Positions 7,745-16,500 of a stretch of 20,366 nt of DNA are shown piece after piece. The position numbers and the translations under genes were made by a program. The stretch spans positions 1 through 20,366 of IMG/VR virus record IMGVR_UViG_3300021182_000009; one strand, 5' to 3'. Positions within the stretch are counted from its first letter, which is position 1. Each line of letters starts with the position of its first letter. The notes under the pieces were generated by a model. It saw only the letters and a program-made list of their open reading frames with translations. It did no database searches and was not told the DNA's origin. The DNA is from a virus.

Positions 7745-8674
7745 TTAGCTACCAGCGTTACCAGAGCCGAATACACAGCGTGGATCTACTGCACCAAGGG
7801 AGAAACGAGTCGTTACTTTATGACGGTAGTCACTAGTATTGAAGTCGTTGTCTGAGCCTGATTTTTCGCTACGTTGGAAGAAAATCAAACCATCATCCAC
7901 GTCAGTCGTGCAGAACCAGTTGGTTTGGTTATTCAGGTAATGGTTTACCATGTAACCTTTACCAAAGGTCTTCAGAGACATCAATGGGTTGATCGCGTTG
8001 TTAGCATTTTCACTAACCAAGAAAGAACCGAGAATCTTCTCAGCCAAGAACATATCAGAACGAGGGACTACCAGCTTTTCCGGCATGATAGCGGCCAGAC
8101 GACCTGAAGAGTCTTTAAAGCCAGAGATTGAAATAGCAGCAGATTCTAAAGCCGCTTGGTTCAATGCAGAAGCTACTGACAGTTGGTTGGAGTACGTGCC
8201 GCCTTTACCAATCAAATGGCTAGCAGAGAACAGTGATACACCGTCCCATGCTGTAAAGGTGTTCGTGTTGTAACCATTGTCGAACAATTGGGCTGCGATT
8301 GTTTCCTTGGTGATCTTTTCAGACCGGCCAAGTTCTTCACCCATTTTCTTCATTTCGTTCAGGTACAGGTTATCGTCCATCGCTTCTTCAGTAATGGCAA
8401 TACCAAGACCGTAGTTAATGTGGATAAAACGATACAAACCTGTTTCAGTGTATGAATCATACTGAATCGCTTGTCCTTCCGGTTTCACTTGTAACAGTGA
8501 AGTGCCAGTGCGGATTACGAATTCTTCATACGCCTTGTCGGATTTACGAACGTCAAATATCTGCTCATATTCGGAGGGATATTCGCGCCATACAGATACA
8601 ATACCGTTTAAACCGGCTTGTAACTCACGTTGGATACTACCTTGGGAGACTACGCCACCTTGTAAAATTGTCAT
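7745..8674 (-). CDS. Major capsid protein (HK97 fold)
   Basis: The 309-residue product matches the type of phage major capsid protein seen in Mu gpT-like and related HK97-fold families. Recognisable segments are an N-arm helix (LQAGLNGIVSVWREYPSEYE), a beta region with TGLYRFIHINYGLGIAITEE followed by AMDDNLY, the DGVSLFSASHLIGKGGTYSN loop, the helical stretch AALESAAISISGFKDSSGR, and PEKLVVPRSDMFLAEKILGS. In this family those blocks form the E-loop, P-domain and A-domain. It has AGGAG seven bases before the ATG. The gene follows the decoration-like gene by 13 bases and ends at a strong terminator, consistent with high expression. It is not a P22 gp5 type despite the P22-like tail. Confidence 0.85.
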   Translation of the reverse strand: MTILQGGVVSQGSIQRELQAGLNGIVSVWREYPSEYEQIFDVRKSDKAYEEFVIRTGTSLLQVKPEGQAIQYDSYTETGLYRFIHINYGLGIAITEEAMDDNLYLNEMKKMGEELGRSEKITKETIAAQLFDNGYNTNTFTAWDGVSLFSASHLIGKGGTYSNQLSVASALNQAALESAAISISGFKDSSGRLAAIMPEKLVVPRSDMFLAEKILGSFLVSENANNAINPLMSLKTFGKGYMVNHYLNNQTNWFCTTDVDDGLIFFQRSEKSGSDNDFNTSDYRHKVTTRFSLGAVDPRCVFGSGNAGS

Positions 8675-9331: not shown

Positions 9332-9877
9332 TTACCGATCAAATTTCTCAGATAATCCGTACTTGCCGTTAGAAAGACGAGCCGCATATACGCCATCATC
9401 GGTTTCACCCGTGTTAGCGTTCGGACCTCGTCTTAGTGAGTTCCTTACCTCTTGATTGTGATTTTCCTGCTCTGCGATGTCATCTTCATACCATTCGCGT
9501 GGCATCATCATGAGGACTGAATACATACTATCTGTTGTTTCACCCCGACCTACGGGTATCTTAACAACTCCTCCGGTGTAAGTTCTCTGTTCACCGGGTT
9601 CCCACATTTTACCATCGGCCATATCAAGTTGGACTCTCACCCAACCTCTCTGCTCCCGAATCTCTACCTTTCCTTTTTCGTCGTTCTCCCAGAAGTACAT
9701 AAACTGACTCTCTGGGTATGCGTCTAGGATTGGCTTTGGTACCGCAAGTCTATCTGCGTGTACACTTCCTCCGGGACGCGGACGGGTAATTTTACGCCCT
9801 GGAGTCTTTGCCACATTGCGCTCTGCCCGTTCCGATTTTCGTGCGGTTTTCTTGTCGCCATCAAAATCAATTGTCAT
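9332..9877 (-). CDS. Conserved phage head-module protein of unknown function
   Basis: The 181-residue product has a basic, disordered N-terminus (DGDKKTARKSERAERNVAK, then GRKITRPRPGG). The middle domain has PESQFMYFWENDEKGKVEIR followed by GWVRVQL, and MYSVLMMMPREWYEDDIAEQ follows. The C-terminus is charged and probably unstructured (SLRRGPNANTGETDDGVYAA). Proteins with this pattern (an F/W-x-N/D-D-x-x-G-x-V strand followed by a P-x-x-x-Y/W helix) sit between the scaffold and capsid genes in several phages and have no agreed function. It may assist assembly or bind DNA through the basic arm. A good GGAGTGAT ribosome site precedes the ATG. Confidence 0.65.
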   Translation of the reverse strand: MTIDFDGDKKTARKSERAERNVAKTPGRKITRPRPGGSVHADRLAVPKPILDAYPESQFMYFWENDEKGKVEIREQRGWVRVQLDMADGKMWEPGEQRTYTGGVVKIPVGRGETTDSMYSVLMMMPREWYEDDIAEQENHNQEVRNSLRRGPNANTGETDDGVYAARLSNGKYGLSEKFDR

Positions 9878-9890
9878 AATATCACTCCTA

Positions 9891-10763
9891 TTAGTTAGAT
9901 TGCAAGTTCTTTAAAAAGGCAGCCGCTTTCTTATCGCCGTCTTTCATGGTTTTGATCATTTCGTAAGTTTTACGCTCTGAGGCCGACAGCTTTGGAGGCG
10001 CACCCGCTTTGCTTTGATTGGGTGCTGCTACCGCTGGGGCTTTTGCCGCAGGTTTAGCTTGTTGCTTCTCGGGTGGTTTGTGCATACTAATGACCTCTTC
10101 TAAAATGCCTTTAATGTCAAACGGGCTTAAATCTTTCCCGCCGTACTGGTTTTTAAGCTGCTTGCCGTATTCCAAAGCTTCACCCCATACCTTGTCAGCG
10201 TACTCCTTGTTAAAGTCTGGAGACTCTGGATTAATCGCTGGAGTATTAGCGATAAACTTGGCAATAACAGGAGGCGTTACCTGTTGCTGCTGCACCGGAG
10301 CTTGGGCTTTCTGTTGGTTTATCTGGTTAGATAACTCAACCGCTCTGGCTGCATCACCATCGGCAATCGCTTGCTTCAGTTGTGACTCCTGTACCTTGAG
10401 CGCATCCTGTACGGCCTTTTGCTTGTCATCTTCCCAAGTCTTTAACAGGGTTTGAGTAAGCTTTTTGTTCTCCTTCAGCTCATCGGATATTTCACGACGA
10501 TACTTCATGTCGTCAAATACTTTATTGAACGCCTTCGGACCAACCCATTTATCAGGGTCTTTACCATCAGCCGTCCATACCTCTAACGGTACGTGCCCGT
10601 GGTCTTTTGCCCGTTTATACTCAGGGTCTTTGGTGTATTTGTCTTTGTCAACGTGGTCGCGGAACTTCTCAGGAACCGCACTCAGGTCTACTTCGGGAGC
10701 AGCCTGCTCTACTGTTTCTACGTCCGCCACATCAGCGGTTGAGGTTACGTCTACATCAGCCAT
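9891..10763 (-). CDS. Scaffolding protein
   Basis: The 290-residue protein has the composition expected of a phage scaffold. The N-terminus is acidic and unstructured (VDVTSTADVADVETVEQAA). A charged helical middle (ISDELKENKKLTQTLLKTWE, then KVQESQLKQAIADGDAA) leads to a Gln-rich linker. A Pro/Ala/Lys-rich stretch follows (EKQQAKPAAKAPAVAAPNQS), and a short basic helical C-terminus (KLSASERKTYEMIKTMKDGD followed by KKAAAFLKNLQSN) is typical of the coat-binding segment. It lies two genes before the decoration and capsid genes. A GGAG ribosome site is seven bases before the ATG. Assignment is by composition, size and position, because scaffold sequences diverge quickly. Confidence 0.75.
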   Translation of the reverse strand: MADVDVTSTADVADVETVEQAAPEVDLSAVPEKFRDHVDKDKYTKDPEYKRAKDHGHVPLEVWTADGKDPDKWVGPKAFNKVFDDMKYRREISDELKENKKLTQTLLKTWEDDKQKAVQDALKVQESQLKQAIADGDAARAVELSNQINQQKAQAPVQQQQVTPPVIAKFIANTPAINPESPDFNKEYADKVWGEALEYGKQLKNQYGGKDLSPFDIKGILEEVISMHKPPEKQQAKPAAKAPAVAAPNQSKAGAPPKLSASERKTYEMIKTMKDGDKKAAAFLKNLQSN

Positions 10764-10766
10764 ATT

Positions 10767-11129
10767 TTACTCCGAGTCTATTAGTTTAAGTTTCTTTCCA
10801 TCCGGTAACGTCATTAGTACATTCGTATCTGCCATGATTCGAATAACTTGAGCGTTTGGGTCGTCAGGATTGTCTGTATAGGCTTGTCCGGCAAATTGAC
10901 GGAATACTACCCTTACACCTACGGCATTCTTTTCCCTGTCTGTATCGCCAAAATCAGCGCCCGTAAAGGCTTTCTCACCGACTCCAACAATCGTTCCAAA
11001 GGTAGTAGCCGCTTGCTTGCGTCTTAAACCATCACCGGACTCCATGATGATTCCAGACTTTGTTTTTTGTGCCACCGGATCTAATTTAACCGCTACCATG
11101 TAGGAGTTGACATTACTTGACAGATTCAT
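10767..11129 (-). CDS. Phage GroES-like co-chaperonin
   Basis: The 120-residue protein follows the GroES order. A first strand YMVAVKLDPVAQ is followed by KTKSGIIMESGDGLRRKQAA, which matches the mobile-loop region where cellular GroES has G-I-V-L; here it is G26-I27-I28-M29. Then come the GTIVGVGEKAFTG strand, an insert, GVRVVFRQFAGQ, and a closing VIRIMADTNVLMTL strand. Cellular GroES binds GroEL through the I-V-L tripeptide, and T4 gp31 replaces GroES for capsid folding using a similar tripeptide. The neighbouring scaffold and capsid genes suggest a role in folding the capsid protein. The 20-residue insert between the two barrel halves is an oddity. The ATG has AGGGGG about seven bases upstream. 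Confidence 0.75.
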   Translation of the reverse strand: MNLSSNVNSYMVAVKLDPVAQKTKSGIIMESGDGLRRKQAATTFGTIVGVGEKAFTGADFGDTDREKNAVGVRVVFRQFAGQAYTDNPDDPNAQVIRIMADTNVLMTLPDGKKLKLIDSE

Positions 11130-11379
11130 CGTCTTCCCCCTTCTGGATTAGTTCAAACCTGTCCATCAGCATTTTTGCATCTACACAATCCTGAATAGCG
11201 TCCATCTTCCCCAATTCATAGCGGTATAATTCAGCCGTAGTAATCAAAGGATCTGAAGAGATACATTGACCTCGGGCGATATAAGAAGCTGTGGAATTGT
11301 TGAAAAGTGCTAGTGATTGTAGATACGTGATTGTTACAGGGTCTTTAAGCCACCCGTTTACCTGCTCTTGTGTTACCAT
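11113..11379 (-). CDS. Conserved small helical phage protein
   Basis: The 88-residue protein is mostly helical: MVTQEQVNGWLKDPVTITYL, a QSLALFNNSTASYIARGQC segment, a conserved-looking DPLITTAELYRYELGKMDAI block followed by QDCVDAKMLM, and an acidic tail. I know this pattern only as a hypothetical protein of podovirus morphogenesis regions. It may have a role with the portal or the co-chaperonin that follows, whose start overlaps its end by 17 bases. The ribosome site AGAGG lies inside the 14-base repeat immediately before the ATG. Confidence 0.7.
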   Translation of the reverse strand: MVTQEQVNGWLKDPVTITYLQSLALFNNSTASYIARGQCISSDPLITTAELYRYELGKMDAIQDCVDAKMLMDRFELIQKGEDDESVK

Positions 11380-11667: not shown

Positions 11668-11971
11668 TCGATGACGCAGGATGAGCGTCTGCCATTTTTG
11701 ATTCCCACGAGGTTAACCTGTTAGGCGTTCTGCTCGCCATCATCGGATTGACGATAGATGCTCCCATTTGATCAGCTTCTACGTGTGGAATAGTCCTCAG
11801 TGGCTGTCTTGACGCTTGCATGGCTTCAATAGACTTCACGGTATTCTGATACTCTGGAGACTGGTTTCTACCTGTTTCAGACGCTTTAGAGTGAACCCAC
11901 TGCAATACTTCAGGGGATAAGATGTGATTCTTAATCCATGACGGTGGAGCACCTTCGAATAAATCAGCCAT
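11567..11971 (-). CDS. Small protein after the portal, function unknown
   Basis: The 134-residue product begins MADLFEGAPPSWIKNHILSP, continues with QWVHSKASETGRNQSPEYQN, and ends with a helical stretch (SSTIQSMIDTAGDVSNKVAD then LRQGVASSLADVVSP). Its ATG overlaps the end of the portal gene by eight bases. Low-complexity, partly helical proteins directly after the portal may be minor head or portal-associated factors. I do not recognise a family. It ends with TAG and is followed by a gap of about 190 bases on this strand, which holds the plus-strand ORF. Confidence 0.65.
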   Translation of the reverse strand: MADLFEGAPPSWIKNHILSPEVLQWVHSKASETGRNQSPEYQNTVKSIEAMQASRQPLRTIPHVEADQMGASIVNPMMASRTPNRLTSWESKMADAHPASSTIQSMIDTAGDVSNKVADLRQGVASSLADVVSP

Positions 11972-14345
11972 TATTCAATCCCGATAAGTGGTCACTGATT
12001 ACCTTGTGAAGCGCAGAATGTTGATCCATCTTTCCCATCACCTGATCACGGGTCATCCCATGCTTGGCCATTGTGTCCTGAACATCATTCTCCATTACTG
12101 TTCCGTGAACCGGATGTTCAATAGGTTTTGAGGATGCTCCGGCGCTTGCTTTAGTGGCTTGTGCTTCGGCTTCTTTCTCACCCTGAGATTCAGCTACCAA
12201 ATGCTCCCTGACAGCGTTTAATTCTTGTAAAGACTGACTGGCTTGCGCCATGTCAATACCGTTCAATTTCATCATGGTATCAGCTTCGATGTTATCCACT
12301 TCTGCTTGGTGTTTGGCTTCCATCAAATCAGCCGCTCGCTGGTCTAGATGATTGTCAACCGCTTTGATCTGTGTCTCTGCGGCGGCTTTCTGTGCGTTCG
12401 CTTGTTTCAAGGCAGCGTCAGACTTAGTCCATTCCAATTGAGCTTGCTGCATCGGGTCGGGCTGGCCAGTAGGCTCTGGGAGAATCTTGTCAATGTCAAC
12501 ACAGCCGATAACTTTAAGAAAGTTTTTCTCTGCTTCGTATTGATTGTACAAACCACCCGCTTCAGCAGACCTCTGAACGATAATTTCAGCCCTTGAGATT
12601 CTTTCCTGCTCACTACCCATCGTCGGGTCTGCTGTCGTAATTAAATCAAAATCATGATCAAAATCTTTCTTGCTCACCATGTCCTGAGCCAATAACTGTG
12701 GAGGCTGTGGAGGCGGCATATTGAACATCTGGCCTTGTTGTTGTGCTTGTTGTGCCGCTTGCTGGTACTGCTGTACAGCCTGTTGATATTGCATCTGTGC
12801 CGATTGTGGTATTTTAGGATTCCAGTTAACGACCCGCTTGTACTTGTCATCGGTCATGTAGCGTTGCATCAGGTCTTGAATCCGTAAGAATTCATCCGTC
12901 AAAGAACCATAAACCCTTGAACTAATCGCATTGGGAACTTTTAACGATTGGTAGAGTCGCGCAAGGTACATCGATGCCGCTTCATTCGCAGAAACATCCA
13001 GAGCCTGTGACGCTGAAGTATATTGCTCTACGTCCATCTTCAGGTCTTGGAATAGCTTGTACATCGATTCCGAAACACCCGAGAATTGAGGGGTGTAAAT
13101 CATGTCTTTCAGTGAACGGCCAGCACCTACTTGTACTTTGGTCAATTGGCCGAGAATCAGCTCAATCCTGCCTGATTTATTCCTGCCCGGCGCAGAGAGT
13201 TCAGTACTGATAAAGCCTGAATTCATTGCCGTGTTATTCAGCGTCCCCGCGTCGATCATCTGACGCATCATCGTATTCAGGGTTTTGAAGATGTCATACA
13301 ACATATCACCCCAGCCAATGAACACAGCAGGCTTGTCTAGGCTTGGCATGAATCCGGCTTGGGTAAAGAATTCTTCTCCGTCAATCTCGACGACTTGACC
13401 ATCGTCTATTTCAATATCATCTTCACAGAATCTACGTTGAACCTTTACGACCGTATCACAGCATTCACAGAACGTCACAATGTAAGGCTCACAATACCCG
13501 TCATGGTCAAGGTCTAGCGTACAGTGTGATTCGATTAACTTGATAGGGGCTTCAATCTTGGGCTGATTGCCTTTACTCTCATCTACGTGAGCCTCAATCT
13601 CGGCGTAATAACCTGATCTTACATAAGATTCATAATCATTCTGGTCTACGTAAAACCAATGAGACTTTCGTGGTGATTCTTGGAATGAGTCAGAGTCATG
13701 GTCATAAATCATCTTGTCAGCGGTGATCAGGGCTTCCTTAATCTCACCATCAGCCCACCACTTTTTCTTAAAGACCATTCCAACAACAGGCAACAGAAGC
13801 AGAGCTCTGTCCATGCGTTTAGCCCATTGTTTAATCCCTCGTTTTAATTGCCAGTTAATCGCTAAGGCAAGTCTCTCTGCTTGGGCTTCCTTGACCACAT
13901 CGGAATTGCCCCATACCTTAACATTAGCAATGTCTTTACGATTGACTAATTCTGGTACGGTTCTGGAGTTAAACTCGATGGCGGCTTTGGCTAGGGCTGG
14001 AGCCATGACCTTTGAAGCATTGACAAAGGGAAAGGTCTTATCGCCCAACTCTTCCTTCATCGCGGCAAGCTTAATGATTTCTTCATACCGATTGACGTAC
14101 TCGGTCATCGATTTCATATCCATATCGTAACCATCCGTTACACGTTCACGGATAGCGACTACATCAGTCTCGGATAGGTCTTCTAGGATATTGTCAGAAT
14201 CAAGAATCTTTCTTAATTCAACGGGAATGGCGTGCTCTTGTGTTTCCTCTTCCTGAGTCTCATCGGCCTCGCCTTCCTGCATAGCTTCGGGACGCTCATC
14301 CAGCGGCGCATCTTCGTATTCTGTGGGGGATGTTTCTACAGCCAT
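11964..14345 (-). CDS. Portal protein, P22 gp1-like
   Basis: The 793-residue protein is slightly longer than P22 gp1. It forms the dodecameric ring through which DNA is packaged and released. After an acidic N-terminus it carries the family segments EELGDKTFPFVNASKVMAPA, NSRTVPELVNRKDIANVKVW, AKRMDRALLLLPVVGMVFKK, GWGDMLYDIFKTLNTMMRQM, and a wing region rich in aromatic and charged residues. Residues near 530-560 form a long Gln-rich coiled segment (QQAVQQYQQAAQQAQQQGQ), as in the P22 barrel. The C-terminus is helical and charged (DQRAADLMEAKHQAEVDN). The ATG is preceded by an in-frame TAG and has no visible ribosome site. A promoter-like sequence lies just upstream. Confidence 0.88.
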   Translation of the reverse strand: MAVETSPTEYEDAPLDERPEAMQEGEADETQEEETQEHAIPVELRKILDSDNILEDLSETDVVAIRERVTDGYDMDMKSMTEYVNRYEEIIKLAAMKEELGDKTFPFVNASKVMAPALAKAAIEFNSRTVPELVNRKDIANVKVWGNSDVVKEAQAERLALAINWQLKRGIKQWAKRMDRALLLLPVVGMVFKKKWWADGEIKEALITADKMIYDHDSDSFQESPRKSHWFYVDQNDYESYVRSGYYAEIEAHVDESKGNQPKIEAPIKLIESHCTLDLDHDGYCEPYIVTFCECCDTVVKVQRRFCEDDIEIDDGQVVEIDGEEFFTQAGFMPSLDKPAVFIGWGDMLYDIFKTLNTMMRQMIDAGTLNNTAMNSGFISTELSAPGRNKSGRIELILGQLTKVQVGAGRSLKDMIYTPQFSGVSESMYKLFQDLKMDVEQYTSASQALDVSANEAASMYLARLYQSLKVPNAISSRVYGSLTDEFLRIQDLMQRYMTDDKYKRVVNWNPKIPQSAQMQYQQAVQQYQQAAQQAQQQGQMFNMPPPQPPQLLAQDMVSKKDFDHDFDLITTADPTMGSEQERISRAEIIVQRSAEAGGLYNQYEAEKNFLKVIGCVDIDKILPEPTGQPDPMQQAQLEWTKSDAALKQANAQKAAAETQIKAVDNHLDQRAADLMEAKHQAEVDNIEADTMMKLNGIDMAQASQSLQELNAVREHLVAESQGEKEAEAQATKASAGASSKPIEHPVHGTVMENDVQDTMAKHGMTRDQVMGKMDQHSALHKVISDHLSGLNNG

Positions 14346-14904: not shown

Positions 14905-15079
14905 GAATCATAAACACCTTATAGCCACAGTTCTTACATGACCGTGATGGCATTGGTGGAGTACACTTGTACTTCTCTTTTTCAATGCTCATCTGTGCTC
15001 TGGTCTGTACAGCAAAGCACTTCAAACACATATACTCAGTATCCTGTTCTGCTGTCTCTGGAGTCGTCATAACTGTCAT
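14897..15079 (-). CDS. Small zinc-ribbon protein
   Basis: The 60-residue frame overlaps the end of the terminase nuclease half by 44 bases. A second ATG nine bases later would give 57 residues, and neither start has a good ribosome site. C18-x2-C21 and C48-x2-C51, with a further C39, form a four-cysteine zinc-ribbon pattern (YMCLKCFAVQ and SCKNCGYKVF). Such small ribbons bind nucleic acid or stabilise a partner. The link to packaging comes from position alone. The overlap with terL and with the next gene suggests translational coupling. Confidence 0.65.
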   Translation of the reverse strand: MTVMTTPETAEQDTEYMCLKCFAVQTRAQMSIEKEKYKCTPPMPSRSCKNCGYKVFMIHA

Positions 15080-15818
15080 CGTATTGGTCTCGTGGTTCTG
15101 TCTGGCCTATGTTATCAAAAGTCATGACTAGATAGCGCATGCAATCCATTAAGTGATCGAATTCCTTTACAATCTTCCCCTTCTCATCACGCCTGTATAA
15201 TCGATACTCGGCAAGAGTATTGTGCAGGCAGGAGAATATCTTTAAGCCGCCGCCGCTCAGTCGTTGCCAAACCTCGTAGATACCACTCTCTACCGAATTA
15301 TCAGCGCTTGTGAGTATTAATCCGAGGTCAGCATAGGTGTCAAACAATGAGAACCCGTCCTTCTGGCTTCTACCCCTTGACGCAGGGTCGATACAGCCCT
15401 TAATCCAGTCACCACGACCGCGTATAGCTTGAGCGTGAATGCTTGGTTCAGACTGCCCACGATAATGTTCTGAATATAAGTAAATAATGTTACTGTCCCT
15501 GTCCTTTGCACCCCATATCGCAGCAGTACGATTCCAGCCTACGTCCATTGCATAAGCTCTTTGAAAATGCCGTGGTATCTCGAATGGTGCCACAATGATG
15601 TCAGATTCAGCTACCGGATAGATTGCTCCAGATCCGAGGGATGGGATGCCTTTTGAACGAGCATCGCGTAAGTGTGGTGGTGTTGCGTCTAATAAATCCT
15701 TTTTTGCCTGACTGTCAAGGTGAGGAACATCATCCCAGCCGCAAGTAACCAGATACTTTGATTCGCTAATTTTTGGCAAGCTGGTATTCCTTCGGTAAGA
15801 ATCCCATAACGGTTTCAC
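15036..15818 (-). CDS. terL: Terminase large subunit, C-terminal nuclease half
   Basis: This frame carries the nuclease domain of a phage large terminase, from SESKYLVTCGWDDVPHLDSQ on. The RNase H-like residues are visible in AYAMDVGWNRTAAIW (first Asp), GCIDPASRGRSQKDG (second Asp) and FDHLMDCMRYLVM (later Asp pair). It cuts concatemeric DNA at the start and end of packaging. A GTG at 15818 could start a 260-residue product, but the first 14 or so codons of that frame do not look like terminase and overlap the ATPase frame. The homologous part begins at the frame change near 15770, so this half is probably meant to be joined to the preceding one as a 487-residue protein. It ends with TGA inside the zinc-ribbon gene. 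Confidence 0.85.
   Translation of the reverse strand: MKPLWDSYRRNTSLPKISESKYLVTCGWDDVPHLDSQAKKDLLDATPPHLRDARSKGIPSLGSGAIYPVAESDIIVAPFEIPRHFQRAYAMDVGWNRTAAIWGAKDRDSNIIYLYSEHYRGQSEPSIHAQAIRGRGDWIKGCIDPASRGRSQKDGFSLFDTYADLGLILTSADNSVESGIYEVWQRLSGGGLKIFSCLHNTLAEYRLYRRDEKGKIVKEFDHLMDCMRYLVMTFDNIGQTEPRDQYDDSYDDSRDSRTGY
15766..15777 (-). other. Frame-change site within terL (AAAAA before TAG)
   Basis: The minus strand reads GCC AAA AAT TAG C in the ATPase frame and CCA AAA ATT AGC in the nuclease frame. A +1 shift on the five A, or the loss of one A, joins the two. A real one-base insertion, a homopolymer sequencing error, or programmed +1 frameshifting would all look like this. Confidence 0.8.
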
Positions 15819-16500
15819 TCATTCCAAGCATGGGGGTAAATGTGATGATGGTTATTCCGTTTGTCGTCATGGTTCTCACAAGCGCTTCATTATACACTTC
15901 GTTTGGCGGCTCCTCATCAAACCAGATAACATCTTCCTCCGTCCCCTGAAAAATCTTCCTGCCCTGCTCGTAAGACCTTAGCTTCAGGCTAGACCATCCG
16001 CCTGTTGCGTGCTTAACCTTGATTGATTCAATGCCCTTGGCTGTGCCAGATTTAGAGGTATGCTCTCCCAGTGTTTCACGTGGAATTAGGCCACCTCCCA
16101 TGTCATCGTAGTCACCTAATAGTTTTGCTTGCAGAATGTCCTTGGTGGTCTGTGTTGTATCACCAGCCGCCATACATCGAACTGGCCTATCCCACCTACG
16201 ACCATTCCACCATACTGGATAACGACCAGTTAGGTGATAAGTAACCTCAACACCTCCGGCTATTGTCTTCCCCACCCTATTCCCAGCCATGAAGCAGCGT
16301 TCACGGAAGTCTTTCCCTGCCTCAAAAAATTCCAGATGCTTGGTATACAGATCGCGCCTTAATTTTCCATCATCGGGGAAATAGTCATTAATCCTATTCC
16401 CGTCAATGTGTCTTGCTTCCGCCATCAGAAGCCCCAGAAGCCTTACCTGCTCCTTTGCTGATAGCTTGCTGTAGTCGGGTGATTTCGCGGACTCTTTCAT
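15766..16500 (-). CDS. terL: Terminase large subunit, N-terminal ATPase half
   Basis: The 244-residue frame holds the packaging motor ATPase. Walker A is G73-N-R-V-G-K-T79 in CFMAGNRVGKTIAGG, Walker B is VIWFDEE at 191-197, and the coupling motif is T220-F-T-P in TIITFTPMLGMSE. It stops at TAG (15768-15766) right after FLPKEYQLAKN, where full-length relatives continue directly into the nuclease domain. Removing one A from the AAAAA at 15774-15770 gives a continuous QLAKISESKYLVT junction and a product of 487 residues, close to P22 gp2. The gene begins within the small terminase gene (98-base overlap). A later in-frame ATG at residue 26 is also possible. Confidence 0.88.
   Translation of the reverse strand: MKESAKSPDYSKLSAKEQVRLLGLLMAEARHIDGNRINDYFPDDGKLRRDLYTKHLEFFEAGKDFRERCFMAGNRVGKTIAGGVEVTYHLTGRYPVWWNGRRWDRPVRCMAAGDTTQTTKDILQAKLLGDYDDMGGGLIPRETLGEHTSKSGTAKGIESIKVKHATGGWSSLKLRSYEQGRKIFQGTEEDVIWFDEEPPNEVYNEALVRTMTTNGITIITFTPMLGMSETVMGFLPKEYQLAKN

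Follow-up and report, generated by a model that had tools for sequence, protein, structure and literature searches.

The stretch of viral DNA analysed here, called the window, is 20,366 nucleotides long. Its minus strand carries a run of head genes in the order terminase, portal, two small ORFs, GroES, putative scaffold, a 181-aa ORF, a 195-aa ORF and capsid. The genes around GroES are located as follows.

11964 to 14345, minus strand: portal protein, 793 aa, 89.3 kDa (PHROG 1216)
11113 to 11379, minus strand: small ORF, 88 aa, adjoining GroES on its upstream side; most relatives examined also have a small ORF here
11133 to 11142, minus strand: Shine-Dalgarno-like AAGGGGGAAG just 5' of the GroES ATG, read from the sequence
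10767 to 11129, minus strand: GroES/Cpn10-family co-chaperonin gene, 120 aa, 12.9 kDa (profiles and predicted fold)
9891 to 10763, minus strand: putative scaffold, 290 aa, the next gene after GroES (named from place and size only)
9332 to 9877, minus strand: conserved module ORF, 181 aa
8688 to 9275, minus strand: conserved module ORF, 195 aa, adjoining the capsid gene on its upstream side
7745 to 8674, minus strand: major capsid protein, 309 aa, 34.1 kDa, HK97 fold, PF25209/Mu gpT type (profiles)

An earlier note on this DNA had placed a GroES-like co-chaperonin between the portal side and the scaffold of a P22-type head module. The placement stands, and the gene probably serves head assembly. 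The P22 label does not fit the capsid: Pfam searches of this protein at E≤1 returned PF25209 (9.9e-10), Mu gpT (3.5e-9) and one chance match, with no P22 coat among them, and the sole matches of the capsid family profile were one Mu-type chain (9jod, from phage Mu) and two GpT-domain chains. We took the capsid type from these profiles, since VIA matched the capsid model to encapsulins and phage capsids alike. The label possibly holds for the tail connector; the candidate at 847-2295 matches PHROG 578 'head closure Hc3' (2.9e-65), which we take to be the P22 gp10-type connector.

The large terminase of the window is split in two overlapping ORFs, an ATPase half at 15766-16500 and a nuclease half at 15036-15818, with an A-run at the overlap. 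The split may be real and not a sequencing error, since the terminase of MW202785 is split in the same region (L003 5025-5792 and 5926-6657). Elsewhere in the window, the ORF at 19045-19368 matches PHROG 72, the NinB/Orf recombination mediator (1.3e-5).

The 120-aa ORF is a real, divergent GroES/Cpn10 homologue. Taken by itself the window protein is hard to place: phmmer against PDB sequences gave zero matches at E≤1, BLASTP against E. coli GroES was not significant (E=0.74), a related-locus search with the window GroES alone as query returned zero relatives, and Pfam Cpn10 matched at E=1e-3 with 19.5 bits, slightly below the 21.1-bit cut-off. Its identity is settled by the profiles of its relatives. 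The protein matched PHROG 3188 'co-chaperonin GroES' at E=1.2e-5 and a 13-member phage GroES profile, from which the window sequence was excluded, at E=1.2e-15. A 15-sequence family profile that included it reached solved GroES/Cpn10 chains with E-values down to 4e-26, the one for E. coli GroES being 1.3e-11. Sequence diversity in the two alignments A1 and A2 was too great for pattern scans. A chance ORF is ruled out, as family-profile matches in the surveyed loci fell solely at the expected place, except in L186.

Like PHROG 3188 and the independent phage profile, the predicted fold bears out the co-chaperonin claim. The earlier note had proposed a comparison of the predicted structure with GroES and gp31, and had named a fold without the GroES barrel as grounds for giving up the idea. 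The barrel is present in the AlphaFold model (68 sequences, mean pLDDT 82.1), and both GroES and gp31 were matched. In Foldseek searches against the PDB, the first 30 matches were all GroES/Cpn10, algal co-chaperonin or gp31 chains. VIA aligned the model with the bacterial GroES 8wuc_a (Z 8.9, rmsd 4.0, 93 aligned), with gp31 bound to GroEL, 2cgt_O (Z 8.0, rmsd 2.3, 74 aligned), and with gp31 1g31_A (Z 7.3), and TM-scores were moderate, 0.40-0.57 on the query. By block, pLDDT was about 77-82 in the mobile loop and had its minimum, 65, in roof residues 61-70. The GroES-like domain of medium-chain dehydrogenases was considered and rejected; it ranked lower in the structure list (VIA Z ≤6.5), and there were zero dehydrogenase profile matches.

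Four segments of the protein were located from the alignment.

10998 to 11087, minus strand: mobile-loop segment, residues 15-44
11043 to 11051, minus strand: I-I-M, residues 27-29, the equivalent of the GroEL-docking I25-V26-L27
10998 to 11048, minus strand: lengthened descending arm of the mobile loop, residues 28-44
10920 to 10976, minus strand: roof segment, residues 52-70, 19 residues

The mobile-loop motif K-S-G-I-I-M, read earlier from the sequence, was recovered at residues 24-29, with the hydrophobic tripeptide after Gly in the alignments. Docking residues were counted in the family alignment (loci L020-L114 and L118-L196). Positions 1 and 2 of the tripeptide are hydrophobic in 130 of the 142 capsid-linked phage GroES. 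At position 3, Lys or Arg occurs in 44 of the 142 and in none of 16 cellular GroES; the window has Met there. Docking may thus differ in part of the family, and a Lys/Arg third residue may mean altered docking or a matching to particular GroELs. The same residue could be read as a sign that the GroES-fold protein no longer acts on GroEL and instead forms part of the virion or scaffold, or inhibits or competes with host GroES. The strong divergence of the family (median pairwise identity 39%, branch length of the window 2.54) would suit such a change of function. We think it very unlikely, as the first two docking positions are kept hydrophobic in 130/142, the loop lengths are tightly conserved, as expected for a docking element, and the roof is retained.

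Between the equivalents of V12 and G38 the loop has 30 residues in the window, 25 in E. coli GroES and 30 in T4 gp31. The ascending arm of the window protein is 12 residues, the same as in E. coli GroES. Its descending arm, measured between the equivalents of E. coli I25 and G38, has 17 residues against 12 in E. coli. This arm is 16 residues long in 137 of the 142 capsid-linked phage GroES and 17 in three, namely the window, MW202796 and QDWS535; the two proteins without a long arm are those of L186 (12) and L033 (8, probably misaligned). Of the 16 cellular GroES, 15 have an arm of 12 residues and one has 13. Among nine hand-picked phage GroES not linked to the capsid (gp31 not counted), two of which, vir526 and MW202601, come from distant capsid relatives, seven have arms of 11-12: Shewanella 1/44, Vibrio 1.049.O, BcepSaruman, Motura, Immuto, Vibrio D93 and vir526. 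The exceptions are Campylobacter phage F207 (15) and MW202601 (20). A Cpn10 of unknown linkage, MAG_L219, has an arm of 16; MAG_L220 and MAG_L222 have 14, and MAG_L213 and MAG_L218 have 12.

The roof, taken as the stretch between the equivalents of E. coli G44 and G62, is ordinary; its 19 residues compare with 17 in E. coli and a phage median of 18. The insert of about 20 residues that the earlier note saw at G57-V70 is therefore absent. Its suggestion of a changed cage size is left with a different site: the loop is lengthened (30 against 25 residues in E. coli), and the roof is not where a change lies.

The survey sampled 129 loci with a gpT-type capsid and at least 2.8 kb of upstream sequence, and in 123 of them a same-strand GroES gene precedes the capsid gene. 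The sample drew on the best 80 of 590 confirmed capsid relatives and, from 85 relatives in genome contigs, on 79 loci, and the loci are not fully independent. GroES was found 1-4.5 kb upstream of the capsid in 65/66 IMG/VR viral loci and in 58/63 genome-contig loci. Loci with less than 2.8 kb upstream were left out (29 viral, 8 of which show GroES, and 16 genome loci, 1 of which does). Over 132 hits the GroES-capsid distance had a median of 2.1 kb and a 95th percentile of 2.3 kb. An own GroES, which had been regarded as an exception, is thus the rule among phages with this capsid type.

The six misses are two chimeric contigs, two distant relatives without GroES, one locus with GroES further upstream (L186, 5.8 kb from the capsid) and one short locus (L190, with 3.0 kb of upstream sequence only). 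In the distant relatives L034 and L194 (capsid about 30-32% identity), the portal, an 88-90-aa ORF and the putative scaffold are present and GroES is absent between them; these two loci offer a natural contrast from which the purpose of the lid might be read. L118 and L138 are public MAG contigs in which bacterial genes abut mid-module, a sign of chimeric assembly or binning. G018, the genome of L136 (a Maricaulis MAG), has eleven Cpn10 matches and probably represents many phage contigs binned together.

The window capsid type was found by tblastn in 26 phage records. An annotated GroES stands directly before the putative scaffold in 13 of the 18 records examined among these: MW202796, MW202785, QDWS535, Pag-Yong1, HTVC023P, DSL-LC04, CRP-901, CRP-902, 023Pt_psg01, HTVC027P, RW, ct7L0027 and ctpbd312. 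GroES was sought and found absent in Mushu and two faecal fragments. In vir526, said to infect Methanomicrobiales, groS lies upstream of the terminase (L014 1027-1383) and has an ordinary loop length. MW202601 has a Cpn10 far from the head genes (L116 1402-1866), with a 20-residue descending arm and long extensions. Matches to the DSL-LC04 GroES occur in 25 phage records, 16 with a gpT-type capsid and nine unannotated. A GroEL gene was sought in 16 phage records and found in none (0/16).

The closest relative of the window GroES is that of MW202796, with 36% identity. A tree was built from 142 phage and 16 cellular GroES; it needed only 2 label changes, against 15.5 in shuffles. Sequences with fewer than 85 aligned residues were dropped from the tree, and the cellular set was kept free of L218 and of any Cpn10 whose match to E. 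coli GroES had an E-value above 1e-8. A recent capture of host groES is disfavoured by this near-full separation of phage and cellular sequences, and capsid-linked phage GroES may have a single origin; the tree gives modest support only, since few of its forks are well supported and the window sits on a long branch.

Over 113 loci, Mantel correlations with the GroES distances were 0.81 for the capsid and 0.85 for the putative scaffold. These correlated distances fit a co-inherited unit. They name no client, since vertical co-inheritance alone would give values of this size and the scaffold scores at least as high as the capsid. That the co-chaperonin acts on a head protein other than the capsid, be it the portal, the putative scaffold or the 195-aa protein, agrees with the position of the putative scaffold directly after GroES and with its slightly higher correlation (0.85 against 0.81). 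We nevertheless consider another such client improbable. The portal, at 89 kDa, is beyond the size that an ordinary GroEL-GroES cage holds. In CRP-901 and CRP-902 the linkage of GroES to scaffold and capsid is kept and the immediate upstream neighbours of GroES do not include the portal, which the authors place at gp75 (in excerpts of PMC10149686), so portal and GroES do not adjoin there. In the known phage precedent, the client is a capsid protein (PMC3012670, in excerpt).

A client may also be lacking altogether: the protein could be a working GroES replacement that has no dedicated capsid client and keeps the GroEL system going late in infection as host chaperone expression falls. Host chaperones and folding catalysts are indeed among the down-regulated genes in pelagiphage infections (PMC12753301, in excerpt), and GroES has no head gene as a direct neighbour in MW202601, Motura and Immuto. 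Such a general role leaves unexplained both the fixed place near scaffold and capsid (123/129 loci) and the difference in loop length from unlinked phage GroES (arms of 11-12 in 7/9), and we regard it as unlikely.

We consider it probable, at roughly 0.7, that the phage GroES lid docks on host GroEL and closes the chamber over a head protein, most likely the gpT-type capsid protein. The phage probably brings its own lid to fold a head protein, since GroES lies near the capsid in nearly all relatives examined and the docking loop is lengthened. The capsid is suggested as client by analogy with T4, where gp31 and GroEL are needed for gp23 folding. GroES would be co-expressed with the head genes and would form a seven-fold lid. 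This lid would dock on host GroEL through the hydrophobic I-I-M of its mobile loop and close the chamber over the putative client, and folding of the capsid protein would be sped or permitted before prohead assembly. With the arm 4-5 residues longer and the roof kept, the lid may be raised or tilted relative to host GroES, and the shifted lid could give a chamber tuned for the phage client. Enlargement of the cage is not an obvious need, since a 34-kDa capsid protein should fit the ordinary GroEL-GroES cage and does not by size alone require a bigger one. For such a client, changed kinetics or contacts are as likely as enlargement.

More tentatively, and with doubt outweighing confidence, we propose that an old, large, mostly short-tailed phage lineage depends on its own GroES lid for its gpT-type capsid, and that a tuned cage evolved there independently of T4, through the descending arm and with the roof kept. 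If this is true, lid and capsid protein are a matched pair, and host GroES cannot substitute for the phage lid. Such matching is directly testable in growable phages, namely Caulobacter phage RW, pelagiphages and roseophages.

The GroES proteins of HTVC023P (gp36), CRP-901 (gp61), DSL-LC04, Pag-Yong1 and Caulobacter phage RW belong to the same family as the window protein. HTVC023P-type and related phage GroES share with it the long arm and the site, next to the putative scaffold and before a gpT-type capsid gene. The window protein is a divergent member of this group (at most 36% identity, to MW202796) and has an arm of 17 instead of 16. GroES is one of 13 core genes in HTVC023P-type pelagiphages (n=82; excerpts of PMC9599517), is labelled in the figure of the CRP-901 genus (excerpts of PMC10149686), and is discussed for a siphovirus in an excerpt of PMC4294664. 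In the literature searched, which did not cover a key viral-chaperonin survey, we found no description of the descending-arm loop architecture or of a near-universal GroES-capsid linkage across hosts. The phage loop architecture thus appears to be unreported.

Other phages carry GroES homologues with ordinary arms (12/11-12), such as Shewanella phage 1/44, BcepSaruman, Motura, Immuto and Vibrio D93, and their settings differ: that of Shewanella phage 1/44 lies between head and tail genes, and that of Immuto adjoins groEL. Like the E. coli groS product, the window protein has the barrel fold, the hydrophobic tripeptide and the roof segment; it differs by five more residues in the mobile loop and by the lack of a groEL partner, absent in 16/16 phage records.

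T4 gp31 and the window protein are alike in the GroES fold, the docking loop, a total loop of 30 residues and a proposed function in the phage head. They differ in how the loop is lengthened, since gp31 extends the ascending arm (16/13) and the window protein the descending arm (12/17). The roof segment has 10 residues in gp31, 19 in the window protein and 17 in E. coli GroES. As described in excerpts of PMC6318259, gp31 has loops of 22 residues against 16 in GroES, lacks the roof loops and gives a cage 8% larger. Its client gp23 is about 56 kDa (same source), against 34 kDa for the window capsid. T4 gp31 is needed with GroEL for gp23 folding and GroES cannot substitute for it; gp31 and CocO replace GroES, and gp31 homologues prefer their own gp23 (all in excerpts of PMC3012670). 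The well-studied replacement of GroES for capsid folding is that of T4 and its kin. The phages described here add a second, widespread group: nearly all of them encode a GroES lid near the capsid gene, and this lid carries a different, precisely conserved change of the loop.
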